Shown in pieces: positions 31,599 to 45,381 of a DNA stretch of 64,000 bases. Under the pieces are notes generated by a model that saw only the letters and a list, made by a program, of their open reading frames with translations, had not been told where the DNA came from and made no database searches. Source of the DNA: Thermofilaceae archaeon (GTDB lineage: Archaea; Thermoproteota; Thermoprotei; Thermofilales; Thermofilaceae); the NCBI GenBank assembly GCA_038731975.1, contig JAVYQJ010000001.1:186001-250000 (forward strand). The letters are read 5' to 3'. The position numbers were made by a program, and so were the translations under genes. Numbering within the stretch: the stretch's first letter is position 1; every line of letters starts with the position of its first letter.

Positions 31599-33863
31599 GT
31601 GCCTAGTTTCAAGCTTTTGAAGCGCTACAGGTTCATTAACCTCTACTACCTCCTATTCCAGCATCGCTGGCTGCTCGTAGCAGTTCTTCTCCTCTCCCTC
31701 GTTTCTATGAGCTTGGGCATCGTTAGTCCGCTGGTTACGAGGGCTATCATAGACCAGGGCGTCATGAGGGGGGATTTCGGAGTTATCGCGGTCTACTCGG
31801 GGGTCCTCGTTCTGATCCTGGCGGCAGCCACGGCGCTGGGCGCGTTGAGGGGCTACTACCAGCAGGTCCTGAGCGGGCGCTTCGCGCTCGACCTGCGCTC
31901 GATGGTGTTCTCCAAGGCTATGGAGCTCGGCATGGAGCTGTACCAGTCCACCCAGGTGGGAGACCTCGTTACGCGCCTGTACGGTTACGTGGACAGGGTG
32001 CAGAGGTTCGTGCTCGACAGCTTCTCCACAATCCTGCTCAACTCGATCCAGTTAGCCGCCATGCTCGTCGTGGTTTTCGCGCTCAGCTGGAAGCTCGCGC
32101 TCATCATGCTGCTGCCCCTCCCCCTCTACATCTACGGCCTCGTCCACTACCAACCCAAGATGCGGACGCTCTTCACGAAGAGGTGGAGCAGGGTGAGCAG
32201 GATGTCCGCCTACGTATCCTCGCTTTTCAACGCGGTCCTCCTGGTCAAGCTGACGGGGAGGGAGAGGGAGGAGGCCCGCCGCTTCGGGAGCATGGCCGGC
32301 GACGTCTACGAGGCCGAAGTTGAGGTGGCCAGGCTTACGAGTAGAGTCTTCCCATGGCTCGGCTTCCTTCTTCAGCTGGCTTCCGTCGGGGTGACGTTCG
32401 TGGGCGGGGTCTTGATTACGCGGGGCGAGCTCACCTTCGGCACCCTGACCGCCTTCCTGGCCTACGTGTGGCAGGTTTACGGCCCGGTCCAGGCGATCGC
32501 CGGCCTCATCCCCCAGCTGGCCGAGGCTGAAGCAGCGTACGAGAAGCTGGCTGAGATCCTCGAGGCAAAGCCGAAGGTCTCCGAAGCTCCAGACGCCGTG
32601 GAGCTGAAGGTTAGGGGCGAGATTGAGATCGAGGACGTTTGGTTCGAGTACACGCCCGGAAGGCCCGTGCTAAAGGGCGTCAATCTCGTGATCAAGCCGG
32701 GTGACGTCGTCGGGATCGTCGGCCCCAACGGGTCGGGTAAGACGACACTGGTCAGGCTGCTCGTGAGGCTCTTCGACCCGACGAGCGGCCGAGTGCTCTA
32801 CGACGGGGTCGACCTCCGCAAGGTGAAGCTGTCGAGCTTGAGGGGGCAGATCATTCTCGTCCCCCAGGAGCCGCAGCTCCTGCCGGGCAGCGTAGCCTAC
32901 AACATCGTCTACGGCGTCGACGACCCAGACCCCATCTCGATGATCTACGCGGCCTGGCTGTGCGGTGCGCACCGGTTCATCATCGAGCTGCCCCTGGCTT
33001 ACGATAGCGACGTGGGCGAGCAGGGCAAGTACCTCTCCGGAGGCCAGCGGCAGCTCATCTGCCTGGCGAGAGCTGCTATGCTGAAGCCGAAGGTTCTGAT
33101 CCTCGACGAAGCGACGAGCAACGTCCACGTGGAGCTGGAGGAGGTCATCTTGACACGGCTCCTCGGCTACCTGAGGGACACGACCGTCATAGCGATATCG
33201 CACAGACCAACGCTGAACAAGTTCGTGAACCGGACAATCCTGATGAGCGACGGCCGCGTGCTGGGCGAGGATAAAGGGGGTCTCGGGGAGCGACCCGATC
33301 CTCCCCCTCCCCTGAGAGTGATCGATGCCAGCGAAATCCGCGTGATCGATAGGGGCGCGTGGCTGGAGGCGGAGCTGGACGGCGCGAGGTTGAAGGAGCT
33401 TAGAGCCAGGCTGCCCTTCCCCCTCAGCAACCCGCGTGTGCTCCTGCTCTACAGGAACCCCGACGAGCCGCTCATCATCAGGGACTGGACTCTGCTCGAC
33501 AAGGCCTCCAAGCTCGCCGTAGCTAAGCACCTAATTAAGGAGCACAAGATAGCCATTGCCCGACTAATCGACGTGATCCCTGTGGGAGGGAGGGGAGCGC
33601 GCATGGGGGCTACAGTGAAGCTGGAGAGCGACGAGGGTCTCATCGAGCTGGACGTTGCTCCCACAGCCGTGCTCTCGCTCGACGGGGCGCTCGTCGTCAC
33701 CACGTACGAGCGCACCTACATAATCGATCCCGAGAGGTCGAGTAAGGAGGCCCTCTGGAAAGCCTCCGCGCTCGCGTTCGAACCCCCTAGTCCATTCCGC
33801 AGCCACGGTGTACGCGTGCTGATGGATGTGCTAGCCGAAGCTCTAATAACTGGAGGAGCGTAG
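31599..33863 (+). CDS. ABC exporter (membrane domain + ATPase) fused to a DUF1854-like C-terminal domain
   Basis: This 754-residue protein has a type IV ABC exporter membrane domain with about six helices (residues about 25-300; LLVAVLLLSLVSMSLGIVSP). The ATPase domain has Walker A GPNGSGKTTLV (about 376), signature LSGGQRQLICLARAA (about 490) and Walker B VLILDEATSN (about 510), with H-switch AISHRP. The last ~190 residues (LPFPLSNPRVLLLYRN, VAKHLIKEHKIAIARLIDVI, VKLESDEGLIELDV, TYERTYIIDPE) follow the pattern of DUF1854, a domain linked in bacteria to ABC proteins. Substrate unknown. It leads the cluster with the MtmB-like gene, which starts 7 bp after its stop. Confidence 0.88.
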   Translation: MPSFKLLKRYRFINLYYLLFQHRWLLVAVLLLSLVSMSLGIVSPLVTRAIIDQGVMRGDFGVIAVYSGVLVLILAAATALGALRGYYQQVLSGRFALDLRSMVFSKAMELGMELYQSTQVGDLVTRLYGYVDRVQRFVLDSFSTILLNSIQLAAMLVVVFALSWKLALIMLLPLPLYIYGLVHYQPKMRTLFTKRWSRVSRMSAYVSSLFNAVLLVKLTGREREEARRFGSMAGDVYEAEVEVARLTSRVFPWLGFLLQLASVGVTFVGGVLITRGELTFGTLTAFLAYVWQVYGPVQAIAGLIPQLAEAEAAYEKLAEILEAKPKVSEAPDAVELKVRGEIEIEDVWFEYTPGRPVLKGVNLVIKPGDVVGIVGPNGSGKTTLVRLLVRLFDPTSGRVLYDGVDLRKVKLSSLRGQIILVPQEPQLLPGSVAYNIVYGVDDPDPISMIYAAWLCGAHRFIIELPLAYDSDVGEQGKYLSGGQRQLICLARAAMLKPKVLILDEATSNVHVELEEVILTRLLGYLRDTTVIAISHRPTLNKFVNRTILMSDGRVLGEDKGGLGERPDPPPPLRVIDASEIRVIDRGAWLEAELDGARLKELRARLPFPLSNPRVLLLYRNPDEPLIIRDWTLLDKASKLAVAKHLIKEHKIAIARLIDVIPVGGRGARMGATVKLESDEGLIELDVAPTAVLSLDGALVVTTYERTYIIDPERSSKEALWKASALAFEPPSPFRSHGVRVLMDVLAEALITGGA

Positions 33864-33870
33864 GCGGGGC

Positions 33871-35226
33871 GTGATACCACCCCTCGAGCTTGAGAGGAGG
33901 GCGCGTCAAGCCCCCCGCCTCGAGCAGCGCGCCTTCGACCTATCCCTCTCCCGGGCAATCGCCAACCTCGAAAGGGAGCACCAGATAGTCTACCACCCCG
34001 GTGAGATAGTGCCTGGCGACCCCTCGATGGTTAAGGACGTCTTTGAGGCTGGCTTGCAGCTCCTCCTCGAGTTAGGTGTCTACATCGTTGAGCTGGGCAG
34101 CGCAGCTAAGGTGAGCGAGGAGGAAGTCCGGGACGCTTTGAGCTCAGCCAAGGGCGAGGTGCAGCTAGGGGTTGGCGCCGATTCGAGGGTTCTCAGCGTT
34201 AGGAAGCCGGCCTCAAGGAGTAAGCCCTTCGTCTTCGGCGGCTACGCCGGCACTCCGACACCGGAGGAAATCTTCAAGCCGAGCGCGCTCAGCTACGCGC
34301 TCGAGCCCCTCGTCGACGCTCTCGACCACGGCAGCTTGACGAGCGTGGCCGGCTTAAGCCTTGCTCGCTCGGCCCCCAGCGAGGTTGAAGCGACGCTCCT
34401 CGAGATCCGGCTACTGAGGGAAGCCATCGAGGAGGCTGGCAGGCCTGGCCTGCACCTGCTCGCCTGCGAGAGCAGCGCGAGCGCGGTGGCCAACGCCGCC
34501 GCCATGGCTTCCGGTCTGCTGCGCAGGAGCGATGCGCAGCTGATCCCGATCCTCAATGAGATGAAGGTGGGCTACGACCAGCTGCTGAAGGCGCGCACCG
34601 GCCGCCTGTACGGTGTTCACAACGCGGCTCTGGTGGATCCGATAGTCGGCGGCTTCGCCAGGGGCGCGGCCGGCACAGCGATCTGCGCGGTAGCTGAGGC
34701 GCTAGCGTCGATGGTTGCCTACGGGGCCTCATACGTGCTGGTGCACCCCTACCACATCCACCTCAAGGCCACGAGCGCGAGGGAGTGCCTCTGGGTTGAG
34801 GCGGTTCTGGGCTTAGCTGGTGAGAGGCTCGGTGTACCCCTCGTCGGCGACGTGTGGCCGGCGAACGGGGGCGGCTGCGCGGAGATGCTGTACGAGATCG
34901 CCGCCAACTCCATCGTCGCGGCCTCCTGCGGCCTCAACCTGCTGGGACCCGCACCAGCCAACGGTGAGAAGCCGCACGGCTCTGGCCTGGAAGCGAGGTT
35001 CATGGCTGAGGTGGGCGCAGCGGCAGCAGCGCTCAAGCCCAGCAACGCAGCAGAGCTGGCGGGCGAGCTCCTCCGCTTCTACGAGAGCAGCCTCCGCAAC
35101 CCTAACCCGGGAGTCCCCTTCGGCGAGCTCTACGACTTGGAGAGGAGGGAGCCGGCCCCCTGGTGGGCCAGCGTATACAGGAGGGTGCGAGAGCACGTCG
35201 CGGATCTCGGCCTCGAGCTGGAGTGA
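33871..35226 (+). CDS. MtmB-family (monomethylamine methyltransferase) homologue lacking pyrrolysine
   Basis: This 451-residue protein aligns along its whole length with methanogen MtmB (458 residues): GEIVPGDPSMVKDVFEAGLQ, VEEVRDAL-type helix, QLGVGADSRVLSVRKPASRS, the GGYAGTPTPEEIFKPSALSY block, and C-terminal GCAEMLYEIAANSI and GLEARFMAEVGAAAAA. At the GRPG segment (190-193), where MtmB has pyrrolysine, this protein has Leu197; the nearby Glu (200) is kept. No in-frame TAG occurs. MtmB moves methyl groups from methylamine to a corrinoid protein through the Pyl ring, so this enzyme must use different chemistry. GTG start. Neighbours are an ABC exporter and a UxaA-type hydro-lyase. Confidence 0.85.
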   Translation: MIPPLELERRARQAPRLEQRAFDLSLSRAIANLEREHQIVYHPGEIVPGDPSMVKDVFEAGLQLLLELGVYIVELGSAAKVSEEEVRDALSSAKGEVQLGVGADSRVLSVRKPASRSKPFVFGGYAGTPTPEEIFKPSALSYALEPLVDALDHGSLTSVAGLSLARSAPSEVEATLLEIRLLREAIEEAGRPGLHLLACESSASAVANAAAMASGLLRRSDAQLIPILNEMKVGYDQLLKARTGRLYGVHNAALVDPIVGGFARGAAGTAICAVAEALASMVAYGASYVLVHPYHIHLKATSARECLWVEAVLGLAGERLGVPLVGDVWPANGGGCAEMLYEIAANSIVAASCGLNLLGPAPANGEKPHGSGLEARFMAEVGAAAAALKPSNAAELAGELLRFYESSLRNPNPGVPFGELYDLERREPAPWWASVYRRVREHVADLGLELE

Positions 35227-35257: not shown

Positions 35258-35851
35258 GTGGCTCTACCGCAGGTGGTGTACAAGGCTGATGCCCGCGACA
35301 ACGTGGGAACGGCTCTAGCCCCGCTCGCTGAGGGGGTCGAGTACCCAGTTTACGAGGAGGGCAGAGGCATCGTTGGAAGCGTTAGGCCGATCGTGCCGAT
35401 CCCGCAGTGGCACAAGGTTGCGCTGGAAAAGCTGGAGGAAGGGAGCGAGGTTCGAAAGTTCGGCCACGTAATAGGGATCTGCGCCTGCAACATCGATGAG
35501 GGCTTCGTTGTCCACGTCACGAACGTCCTGCTCGACCCTGCCTTCGATCTCCCGAAGGCTCTCAGGGGCGGCTTCGTGCTTGGGACTGCTACTTCGCGGC
35601 TCGAAAGGGGGGATTTCGTGCGCGTCGGAGTGAACTTCCGACCCACACACCCACTCTTCAGGCAGCTCCCCTCACGCACGAAGGTGGGGGTCGCTGTGGC
35701 GCCCGTTCGAGAGGGGGGCACCCTAAGGCTGGGCAACATCGTTGAGCCGCCACCGGGCGTCCGGCTCAACGAGCGATACGTTAGGCTCGTGAAGGACTTC
35801 TACAGGTTCCTCCGCTCGAGCTTCATCGAGTTCGCCAGGGTGCAGGTGTGA
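35258..35851 (+). CDS. SAF-domain small subunit of a UxaA/SuyAB-type hydro-lyase
   Basis: The GTG at 35258 gives 197 residues; the open frame continues upstream only inside the MtmB-like gene. The first ~95 residues are a SAF domain of the altronate dehydratase/sulfolactate sulfo-lyase alpha type (DARDNVGTALAPLAEGVEYP, PIPQWHKVALEKLEEGSEVR, KFGHVIGICACNIDEGFVVH). A ~100-residue extension not usual in SuyA follows (LRGGFVLGTATSRLERGDFV). Its stop overlaps the next gene's ATG as TGATG, so the two subunits are translated together. SAF domains cap the active site of the large subunit. Confidence 0.75.
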   Translation: MALPQVVYKADARDNVGTALAPLAEGVEYPVYEEGRGIVGSVRPIVPIPQWHKVALEKLEEGSEVRKFGHVIGICACNIDEGFVVHVTNVLLDPAFDLPKALRGGFVLGTATSRLERGDFVRVGVNFRPTHPLFRQLPSRTKVGVAVAPVREGGTLRLGNIVEPPPGVRLNERYVRLVKDFYRFLRSSFIEFARVQV

Positions 35852-37131
35852 TGGCCGAAACGGTGCAGGCCTACTACAGGGAGTCGAGGAAGGTGTTCGG
35901 AGTCAGGAACCACGTCCTAATCCTGCCGACTACGCCCTGCGTGAACAGGTTGGCGGAGCTCATATACGAGGAGTTCAAGGGTGAGAGGTGGGGGGAGCAC
36001 GGGGAGAACAGGGTTGTCCTGGCGCGTCACAACGTGGGCTGCTGCCACGTTGGCTTCGATCTGGACGTAGCATTCGAAACCCTGCTCGGCATAGCTTCGC
36101 ACCCAAACGTTTACGGAGTACTGCTCGTCAGCCTGGGCTGCGGGCAGCTTTGTAAAAGACCCCTCGGATCCGGTGAAAGTAGGCTGGAGAACCTCCTCTC
36201 GTTTAAGCTCTACGAGAGGCTTGTGAAGAGGGGTGTTGAGGTACGCTGGGTGAACCTACAGGAGCCGTGGCCCGAGTCGGTGGACGGTTTCGAAAGAGTC
36301 GTCGAACTCGGCAGGAAGTTCGTGAGGGGGATGCTGGAGAGGGCCAGCTCGTTGAGGAGGACAGAGGCCCCGCTCAAACGCGTAGTGATAGGGGTCGGTA
36401 ACGGGGCATCTGACCCAACTTCGGGCCTTTTCGCCAACCCGGCTGTAGGGTATGTCGTTGAGAAGCTGGTTAGAGAGGGGGTCAGCGTGGTTTTCTGTCA
36501 GACAACTGAGGTTCTTGGCAGCGAGGGCCTACTATTGAGCAGGGTAGCTGACGAGACCGTTGCCAGGAAGCTGAGGAGGCTGCTCGAGGCGGCCTACGCT
36601 GTGAAGGAGGCTCTATCGGAGTACACGTATGAGACGGACCCGACCCCCGGCAACATCGCGAGCGGCATTTCAACTCTCGCTGAGAAATCTCTCGGTAGCG
36701 TGCTGAAGATCGGTAGAGACGCAAACGTGAAGATCCTCGACGTCCTTCCGTACGCTCGTCAAATCCCGCGGGGGAGAGGCGGCCTCTTCCTGATGGACTC
36801 TCCGGGCGAGGACATCCCAGCGATAACGGGGATGGTAGCAGGTGGGGCTCACGCGGTTATTTTCACGACGGGTTTAGGAACACCGGCGGGGTCCGTCGTG
36901 AGCCCTGTCCTGAAGGTGACCGCAAACAGGGATACCTACGCTAGGCTGGCCAGCATCATAGACGTCTACATCCCGGTAGAGGAGGTCTTCAATGGAAGGA
37001 GCCTCCGCGAGCTCGCTGTCGAAACGATCTACCCAGCGCTGCTAGACGTTTTGTCGGGAGAGCGGTTAGCGAAGAGCGAGGTCAACGGGCAGGCGGATCT
37101 GGATGTGAGGGGTTACTGGCTGCGGGCGTAG
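35851..37131 (+). CDS. UxaA-family (altronate dehydratase/galactarate dehydratase type) large subunit
   Basis: The product is 426 residues from the ATG at 35851 (a GTG at 35848 is also possible). It has the family opening VFGVRNHVLILPTTPCVNRL, then RHNVGCCHVGFDLD, HPNVYGVLLVSLGCGQLCKR and DSPGEDIPAITGMVAGGAHA and IFTTGLGTPAGSVVSPVLKV. Members are iron-dependent lyases that remove water from sugar acids, or sulfite from sulfolactate (SuyB). The conserved Cys residues could hold the metal centre. The substrate cannot be read from sequence; the partner genes suggest something other than plain sugar-acid breakdown. Confidence 0.82.
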   Translation: MAETVQAYYRESRKVFGVRNHVLILPTTPCVNRLAELIYEEFKGERWGEHGENRVVLARHNVGCCHVGFDLDVAFETLLGIASHPNVYGVLLVSLGCGQLCKRPLGSGESRLENLLSFKLYERLVKRGVEVRWVNLQEPWPESVDGFERVVELGRKFVRGMLERASSLRRTEAPLKRVVIGVGNGASDPTSGLFANPAVGYVVEKLVREGVSVVFCQTTEVLGSEGLLLSRVADETVARKLRRLLEAAYAVKEALSEYTYETDPTPGNIASGISTLAEKSLGSVLKIGRDANVKILDVLPYARQIPRGRGGLFLMDSPGEDIPAITGMVAGGAHAVIFTTGLGTPAGSVVSPVLKVTANRDTYARLASIIDVYIPVEEVFNGRSLRELAVETIYPALLDVLSGERLAKSEVNGQADLDVRGYWLRA

Positions 37132-45269: not shown

Positions 45270-45381
45270 TGGTGGGGCCGCCGGGACTTGAACCCGGGTC
45301 CCTCCGCGGCGCTCAACCTACGCGGGATCCCGAGGCTAAGCCTCCCGAGCCGCGCATCCTACCAAGCTGGACTACGGCCCC
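45270..45381 (-). tRNA. tRNA-Pro(CGG) with ~33-nt intron
   Basis: On the minus strand: acceptor GGGGCCG/CGGCCCC, D arm GTCC/GGAT, anticodon stem CGCGG/CCGCG, loop CTCGGG with anticodon CGG, T arm CCGGG-TTCAAGT-CCCGG and encoded CCA. About 33 nt (45311-45343) separate position 37 from the 3' half of the anticodon stem, fitting a canonical-site intron. The variable loop as parsed has 7 nt, longer than the usual 5, so a second small insertion or a shifted stem is possible. Confidence 0.8.

Follow-up and report, generated by a model that had tools for sequence, protein, structure and literature searches.

A pyrrolysine-free MtmB-family protein of Thermofilaceae archaea and its probable role in corrinoid-dependent demethylation

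Why should methylamine demethylation in nature call for pyrrolysine (Pyl)? Homologues of the monomethylamine (MMA) methyltransferase MtmB that do without this residue bear on the question. Amber-less MMA methyltransferase homologues were noted in 2010, with a small or bulky hydrophobic residue at the Pyl site, in a review that also names a Thermofilum for the TMA-type homologue (PMC2933860). A first function for a Pyl-free MtmB homologue followed in March 2026 with MtqB, which acts on tetramethylammonium and choline; the tree in that study holds 1,061 Pyl and non-Pyl MtmBs, and the remaining non-Pyl MtmBs are without an assigned function (PMC13044021). The window analysed here, a 64,000-nucleotide stretch of a Thermofilaceae archaeon genome, encodes a further candidate at 33871..35226 (+ strand). 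Its initial annotation described the non-Pyl MtmB branch as much less known, which is fair; given the two papers above, 'unknown' would have been wrong. Pyl-free MtmB homologues are not new; the novelty lies in the present clade, with its signature of pocket residues and the genes that surround it. Is the protein truly an MtmB relative that functions without Pyl, and if so, what might it do?

The gene reads uninterrupted from a GTG start to a TGA stop, with zero in-frame TAG codons, and encodes a 451-residue protein in which residues 9–448 match positions 8–450 of the 450-position Pfam MtmB profile (PF05369; 1.3e-83; 281.8 bits, with the cut-off at 25). In the same Pfam search no match to PF06253 (MTTB) was found, PF05369 being the only family matched. 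Searching the PDB with phmmer yielded structures of Methanosarcina barkeri MtmB1 as the sole significant solved relatives (2.9e-58 for 1L2Q). An AF2 model was built on 18 aligned sequences taken from genomes (pLDDT 94.9), and the three best Foldseek matches to this model were 1TV2, 1NTH and 1L2Q (TM 0.94–0.95, 1.6–1.7 Å). Compared with MtmB1, the protein is of similar length and 31% identical in the structural alignment, with a TM score of 0.95. The MttB superfamily (MttB, MtgB; PF06253) also combines a TIM barrel with a corrinoid partner and has a large Pyl-free branch acting on other substrates; however, the likeness of the window protein to MttB and MtgB is one of distant fold only (TM 0.54–0.57, 12–14% identity by Foldseek). 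The protein thus matches the MtmB profile over its full length, well within the curated threshold, and has the MtmB TIM-barrel fold. This confirms the full-length similarity to MtmB claimed at first reading, and the C-terminal EAR.M.EV block highlighted there is indeed kept between the window protein and MtmB1.

At the Pyl position itself the protein has leucine. The phmmer alignment to 1L2Q, which is gap-free nearby (AGRPGLHLLACESS over AGRPGMGVXGPETS), places Leu197 on X, which is Pyl202, and a 56-sequence MAFFT alignment gives the same register. The codon is CTC (34459..34461, + strand), and in the AF2 model the residue sits in barrel strand E195–198. Both alignments therefore bear out the earlier proposal that Leu197 stands where MtmB has Pyl: comparison with the sequences of the MtmB structures put no other residue at this position, and the frame is free of TAG, as had been stated. 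Other pocket positions, all on the + strand, differ as well. Leu254 (34630..34632) is found where MtmB1 has Glu259, and Asp327 (34849..34851) where it has Gln333; in the segment His292-Pro-Tyr-His295 (34744..34755), His292 replaces Gly297, while His295 is the equivalent of His300, present in Pyl enzymes as well. Leu also takes the place of Glu229. The initial annotation had asked which pocket residues remain, and the answer, with pocket geometry derived from alignment, is mixed: Glu205, Asn234, Glu235 and His300 are kept along with the barrel, but Glu259 and Gln333 are lost. Since the latter two are residues that contact Pyl in MtmB structures, their replacement argues that the pocket has been rebuilt, more than merely stripped, as far as can be judged from the sequence. 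The window protein is accordingly a member of the MtmB family but no MtmB in the strict, Pyl-dependent sense, having neither an amber codon or Pyl202, nor PylS in its genome, nor Glu259 and Gln333.

A Pyl system concealed elsewhere in the genome can be ruled out. The assembly (1.85 Mb, 95.1% complete) contains no PylS above the cut-off of 178 bits, the best match being a class-II synthetase-like stretch at 19 bits, whereas real PylS matches in two other genomes (G210 and G264) scored 243–254 bits. It has a single MtmB-family gene, which is stop-free; the pylS or second, TAG-containing MtmB whose presence would have told against the first reading did not appear. Neither MCR alpha nor MtrH was found in the Thermofilaceae searched, which rules out a methanogenic methyl sink in the host. 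With PylS, MCR alpha and MtrH all missing from its host, the gene can be taken as a true homologue of MtmB that lacks Pyl and is carried by a non-methanogen, and in these host features it differs from MtmB1.

Homologues were found in 14 Thermofilaceae genomes including that of the window, the others being 50–80% identical to the window protein, and conservation over these 14 genomes puts a Leu-bearing homologue far beyond chance. Relatives at 52–81% identity come from MAGs of the Thermofilaceae/Thermofilales type, and the window's genome groups with these. All 13 intact copies, some from single-contig genomes, have Leu at the Pyl position. Together with the missing PylS, this refutes the notion that errors in sequencing or annotation hide a normal Pyl enzyme, or that the gene is frameshifted or a pseudogene, to which we attach a negligible probability. 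The remaining copy (G003, L053:4924-6218), on a low-coverage MAG contig, is split over two frames, probably through an assembly error. No relatives on plasmids were detected by tblastn. In a maximum-likelihood tree of 56 sequences (IQ-TREE; midpoint root for drawing only; a set without MtqB), the window protein falls in a clade with members from Thermofilaceae, Desulfurococcales, Methanomethylicia and Anaerolineae (support 100/99), and the Methanomethylicia members are the first copy of a tandem pair. Pyl enzymes form a separate group (100/99), and other Pyl-free lineages also lie apart from the window clade. The family tree suggested as a check on the first reading thus does show these Pyl-less members as a clade of their own. 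PylS and an MtmB gene interrupted by TAG are present in two Methanomethylicia genomes of family f18, genus g85 (G210, L066; G264, L021), which sets them apart from the other members of that family.

We counted the pocket signature over 41 clade sequences. The Pyl site is occupied by Leu or Ile in 41/41, and the substitutions Glu229 to Leu, Glu259 to Leu, Gln333 to Asp and Gly297 to His relative to MtmB1 are equally universal; Asn234 and His300 are kept in every one, and Glu205 is retained in archaeal members and is Gln in Anaerolineae. Invariance of Leu254, Asp327, His292 and His295, alongside Leu or Ile at the Pyl site, indicates that purifying selection acts strongly on a pocket that has been altered. 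The clade, which spans two domains of life and consists partly of thermophiles, retains the fold and a good part of the scaffold of MtmB, with Pyl and its contact residues swapped for fixed ordinary residues. Finding its substrate would reveal the use to which this fold is put when Pyl is absent, and proteins from thermophiles are often easy to handle.

The likely function is best approached through the operons of relatives. In six genomes of a sister genus (95–99% complete), mtxC, which encodes a corrinoid protein, lies directly upstream of the methyltransferase gene, and the same holds for relatives in Methanomethylicia, Desulfurococcales and Anaerolineae. For many clade members the operon further includes genes for an importer, either BMP or ECF, for a RACo-type activator and for a URO-D methyltransferase resembling MtaA/MtbA. 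The order in Anaerolineae (L132:7041-17141, L134, L136 and L137) is mtxC, mtxB, ECF S/A/T, RACo, homocysteine S-methyltransferase and MtaA/MtbA-like URO-D, where the ECF parts are a PF09819 (YkoE-like) S component, EcfA and a CbiQ-like T component. In Methanomethylicia and Desulfurococcales, mtxC is followed by mtxB1 and, as a rule, mtxB2; a BMP-type importer lies next to these genes, and several cases also have RACo and URO-D. These operons are the best evidence for a corrinoid methyltransferase role on an imported small molecule, and those of the Anaerolineae and the hot archaea predict an uncharacterised demethylation pathway. On the strength of fold and family, the conserved pocket of the clade and these operons, we consider it probable that the window protein is the substrate-binding methyltransferase (the MtxB role) of a corrinoid-dependent, Pyl-free demethylation. 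Several observations count against this role: the methyltransferase gene is not beside mtxC in the window's own genus, one genome (G008) has a RACo-linked MtxC and no MtmB, and another (G004, 79% complete) has MtmB with no MtxC found. Related gene combinations were seen elsewhere. In G083 (L067:7634-11094), a BMP-type importer adjoins a run of three genes, mtxC, a divergent Pyl-free MtmB and MtaB (PF12176, 1e-165), and the sister genus has a second operon that pairs mtxC with a Pyl-free MttB homologue (L160:9263-11341; G011, G012 and G014), the G013 copy of which matches PF06253 at 6.4e-73.

Importer families of the kinds found beside the relatives serve vitamins, vitamin precursors and nucleosides. 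The YkoE-like ECF components in Anaerolineae and the BMP importers in Methanomethylicia and Desulfurococcales suggest that the substrate is a small N-methyl compound resembling a heterocycle or an amine. The nearest NCBIfam model for the BMP protein is a putative B6 transporter, far below cut-off, and for the S components of the ECF systems in G003 and G135 no informative family assignment was obtained.

A corrinoid-dependent MtxB of this sort would resemble MtmB in fold and partner, minus pyrrolysine. The small methylated compound would bind at the mouth of the TIM barrel, in the place taken by Pyl in MtmB. Pyl-free enzymes of the MtgB type pass the methyl group from the substrate straight to Co(I). 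By analogy with MtgB- and MtqB-type reactions (PMC13044021), the methyl group would move directly (SN2) onto Co(I) in a corrinoid protein of the MtxC type, and a covalent substrate–Pyl adduct would not form. The leaving group might be held or protonated by Asp327 and His292, with His295, plus Glu200 and Asp256 in the archaea. The corrinoid would be re-reduced by a RACo-type protein, and the methyl group would then pass to an acceptor, most likely via a URO-D-family methyltransferase, the purpose in the host being nutrient salvage and not methanogenesis. We infer the catalytic activity, the substrate, the identity of the partner and the acceptor alike.

Candidates for several of these parts are present in the window genome. 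It has one TIGR02370 corrinoid protein (MtxC, 208 bits), on another contig and directly upstream of a RACo-type corrinoid reductive activator (L050:10160-11872; RACo_C_ter 1.1e-68, Raco_middle 5.6e-49, Fer2). This MtxC was rejected as a direct orthologue of the mtmB-linked MtxC of the sister genus, as the tree assigns it to a different lineage, and for that reason it is no more than a putative partner of the window methyltransferase. Of ten URO-D genes in the genome, 0/10 are linked to the methyltransferase gene. Allied genera with the UxaA block described below have 9–13 such genes and three sister-genus genomes searched have 0–1; in two sister-genus genomes with the mtxC-mtxB operon both URO-D and MtrH are missing, a point against the scheme above. 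A search of the window genome for core MetE (methionine synthase) as an alternative acceptor found nothing at threshold. Several of the URO-D genes, on other contigs of the genome (L172:7293-8456, L173:8369-9451 and L196:7675-8865), are surrounded by genes for glycoside hydrolases (GH2 beta-galactosidase, GH38, GH4 and arabinofuranosidase), a setting that suggests demethylation tied to glycan use.

The immediate neighbours in the window are of another kind. An ABC-exporter-type transporter of 754 residues (31599..33863, + strand; Pfam ABC_membrane and ABC_tran) ends 7 bases before the methyltransferase gene and is a possible operon partner; the corresponding gene is divergent in G007 and is not beside the methyltransferase gene in the sister genus. 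Downstream lie the small SAF-type subunit (35258..35851, + strand, start codon inferred; weak galactarate dehydratase match, 7.7e-09) and the large subunit (35848..37131, + strand; Pfam GD_AH_C 1.4e-60, GD_AH_second 5.5e-23) of a UxaA/galactarate-dehydratase-like enzyme. The order exporter, methyltransferase, SAF/UxaA is seen in G001 and G002 and partially in G006 and G007, and in all four the UxaA-like large subunit adjoins the methyltransferase gene. Might methyl transfer have been lost, leaving a structural, regulatory or other TIM-barrel role, possibly together with the UxaA-like dehydratase next door? The protein has lost the residues that bind Pyl, and it is the SAF/UxaA-like pair, not mtxC, that accompanies the gene in the window's genus, G006 and G007. 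Yet polar residues at the Pyl-pocket positions are invariant in 41/41 sequences, mtxC remains a direct neighbour in the sister genus as well as elsewhere in the clade, and the SAF/UxaA pair is part of a longer syntenic block of unrelated genes (NAD synthase, agmatinase), on which ground these genes were set aside as functional partners. We regard a loss of methyl transfer as very improbable. Further along the window, Rfam matched a 109-base tRNA that ARAGORN missed (45273-45381, − strand), probably an intron-containing tRNA gene.

Against this background, two more specific substrates can be considered for the corrinoid-dependent reading. MtqB of Methanococcoides methylutens Q3c resembles the window protein in being a Pyl-free member of the MtmB family and is reported to work with a corrinoid protein (PMC13044021). 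As the only Pyl-free MtmB homologue with shown activity, on quaternary methylated amines (QMA) and choline (PMC13044021), it raises the prospect that clade members are likewise choline or tetramethylammonium methyltransferases. MtqB, compared here by its published description, differs in coming from a methanogen that has its own Pyl system and in being encoded beside its corrinoid gene; its pocket is described as having many sulfur-containing and aromatic residues and a conserved Met and Cys (PMC13044021), whereas that of the clade has invariant Asp and His. This contrast argues, weakly, against a quaternary-amine substrate, as a neutral amine leaving group would need no Asp/His. In addition, Methanosuratincola petrocarbonis, from a genus with clade members, does not use betaine (PMC12244365). 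An MtqB-like specificity therefore appears rather improbable to us.

The second substrate is MMA itself, with Asp327 and His292 activating the leaving amine in place of Pyl. The isolate M. petrocarbonis LWZ-6 grows on MMA; it can form methane with methanol or MMA as the substrate, and DMA, TMA and betaine do not serve (PMC12244365). PylS is absent from all nine Methanosuratincola (genus g34) genomes searched, and the MtmB genes found there have no stops and usually number two per genome, the first copy belonging to the window clade. They are arranged mtxC-mtxB1-mtxB2 (e.g. L064/L123) next to a BMP-type importer, and the mtxB1 product has the same pocket signature and is 38–39% identical to the window protein. 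If LWZ-6 matches its congeners, its use of MMA must be Pyl-free, and the clade member or its paralogue would be the first candidates for the enzyme. Such a reaction is made less far-fetched by the low MMA activity of the Pyl-free MtqB, 11 nmol/min/mg (PMC13044021). On the other hand, the case of LWZ-6 is drawn from the genomes of congeners, MMA might instead be the substrate of the second MtmB copy, which is the more divergent, and relatives adjoin vitamin- or nucleoside-type importers and not amine permeases. The Thermofilaceae, moreover, are non-methanogens, and the window gene differs in setting from the pair of Methanosuratincola, a methyl-reducing methanogen with a second MtmB paralogue in an operon with mtxC and a BMP-type importer. 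That the Methanosuratincola clade member demethylates MMA via Asp327/His292, with the Thermofilaceae enzyme as its non-methanogenic relative, is in our judgement unlikely, and the same holds for Pyl-independent MMA demethylation by the window protein. If true, it would put an end to the view that MMA demethylation needs Pyl, a requirement that Methanosuratincola makes directly testable. Two further MtxC neighbourhoods examined in M. subterraneus contain MtaB (for methanol) and a URO-D.
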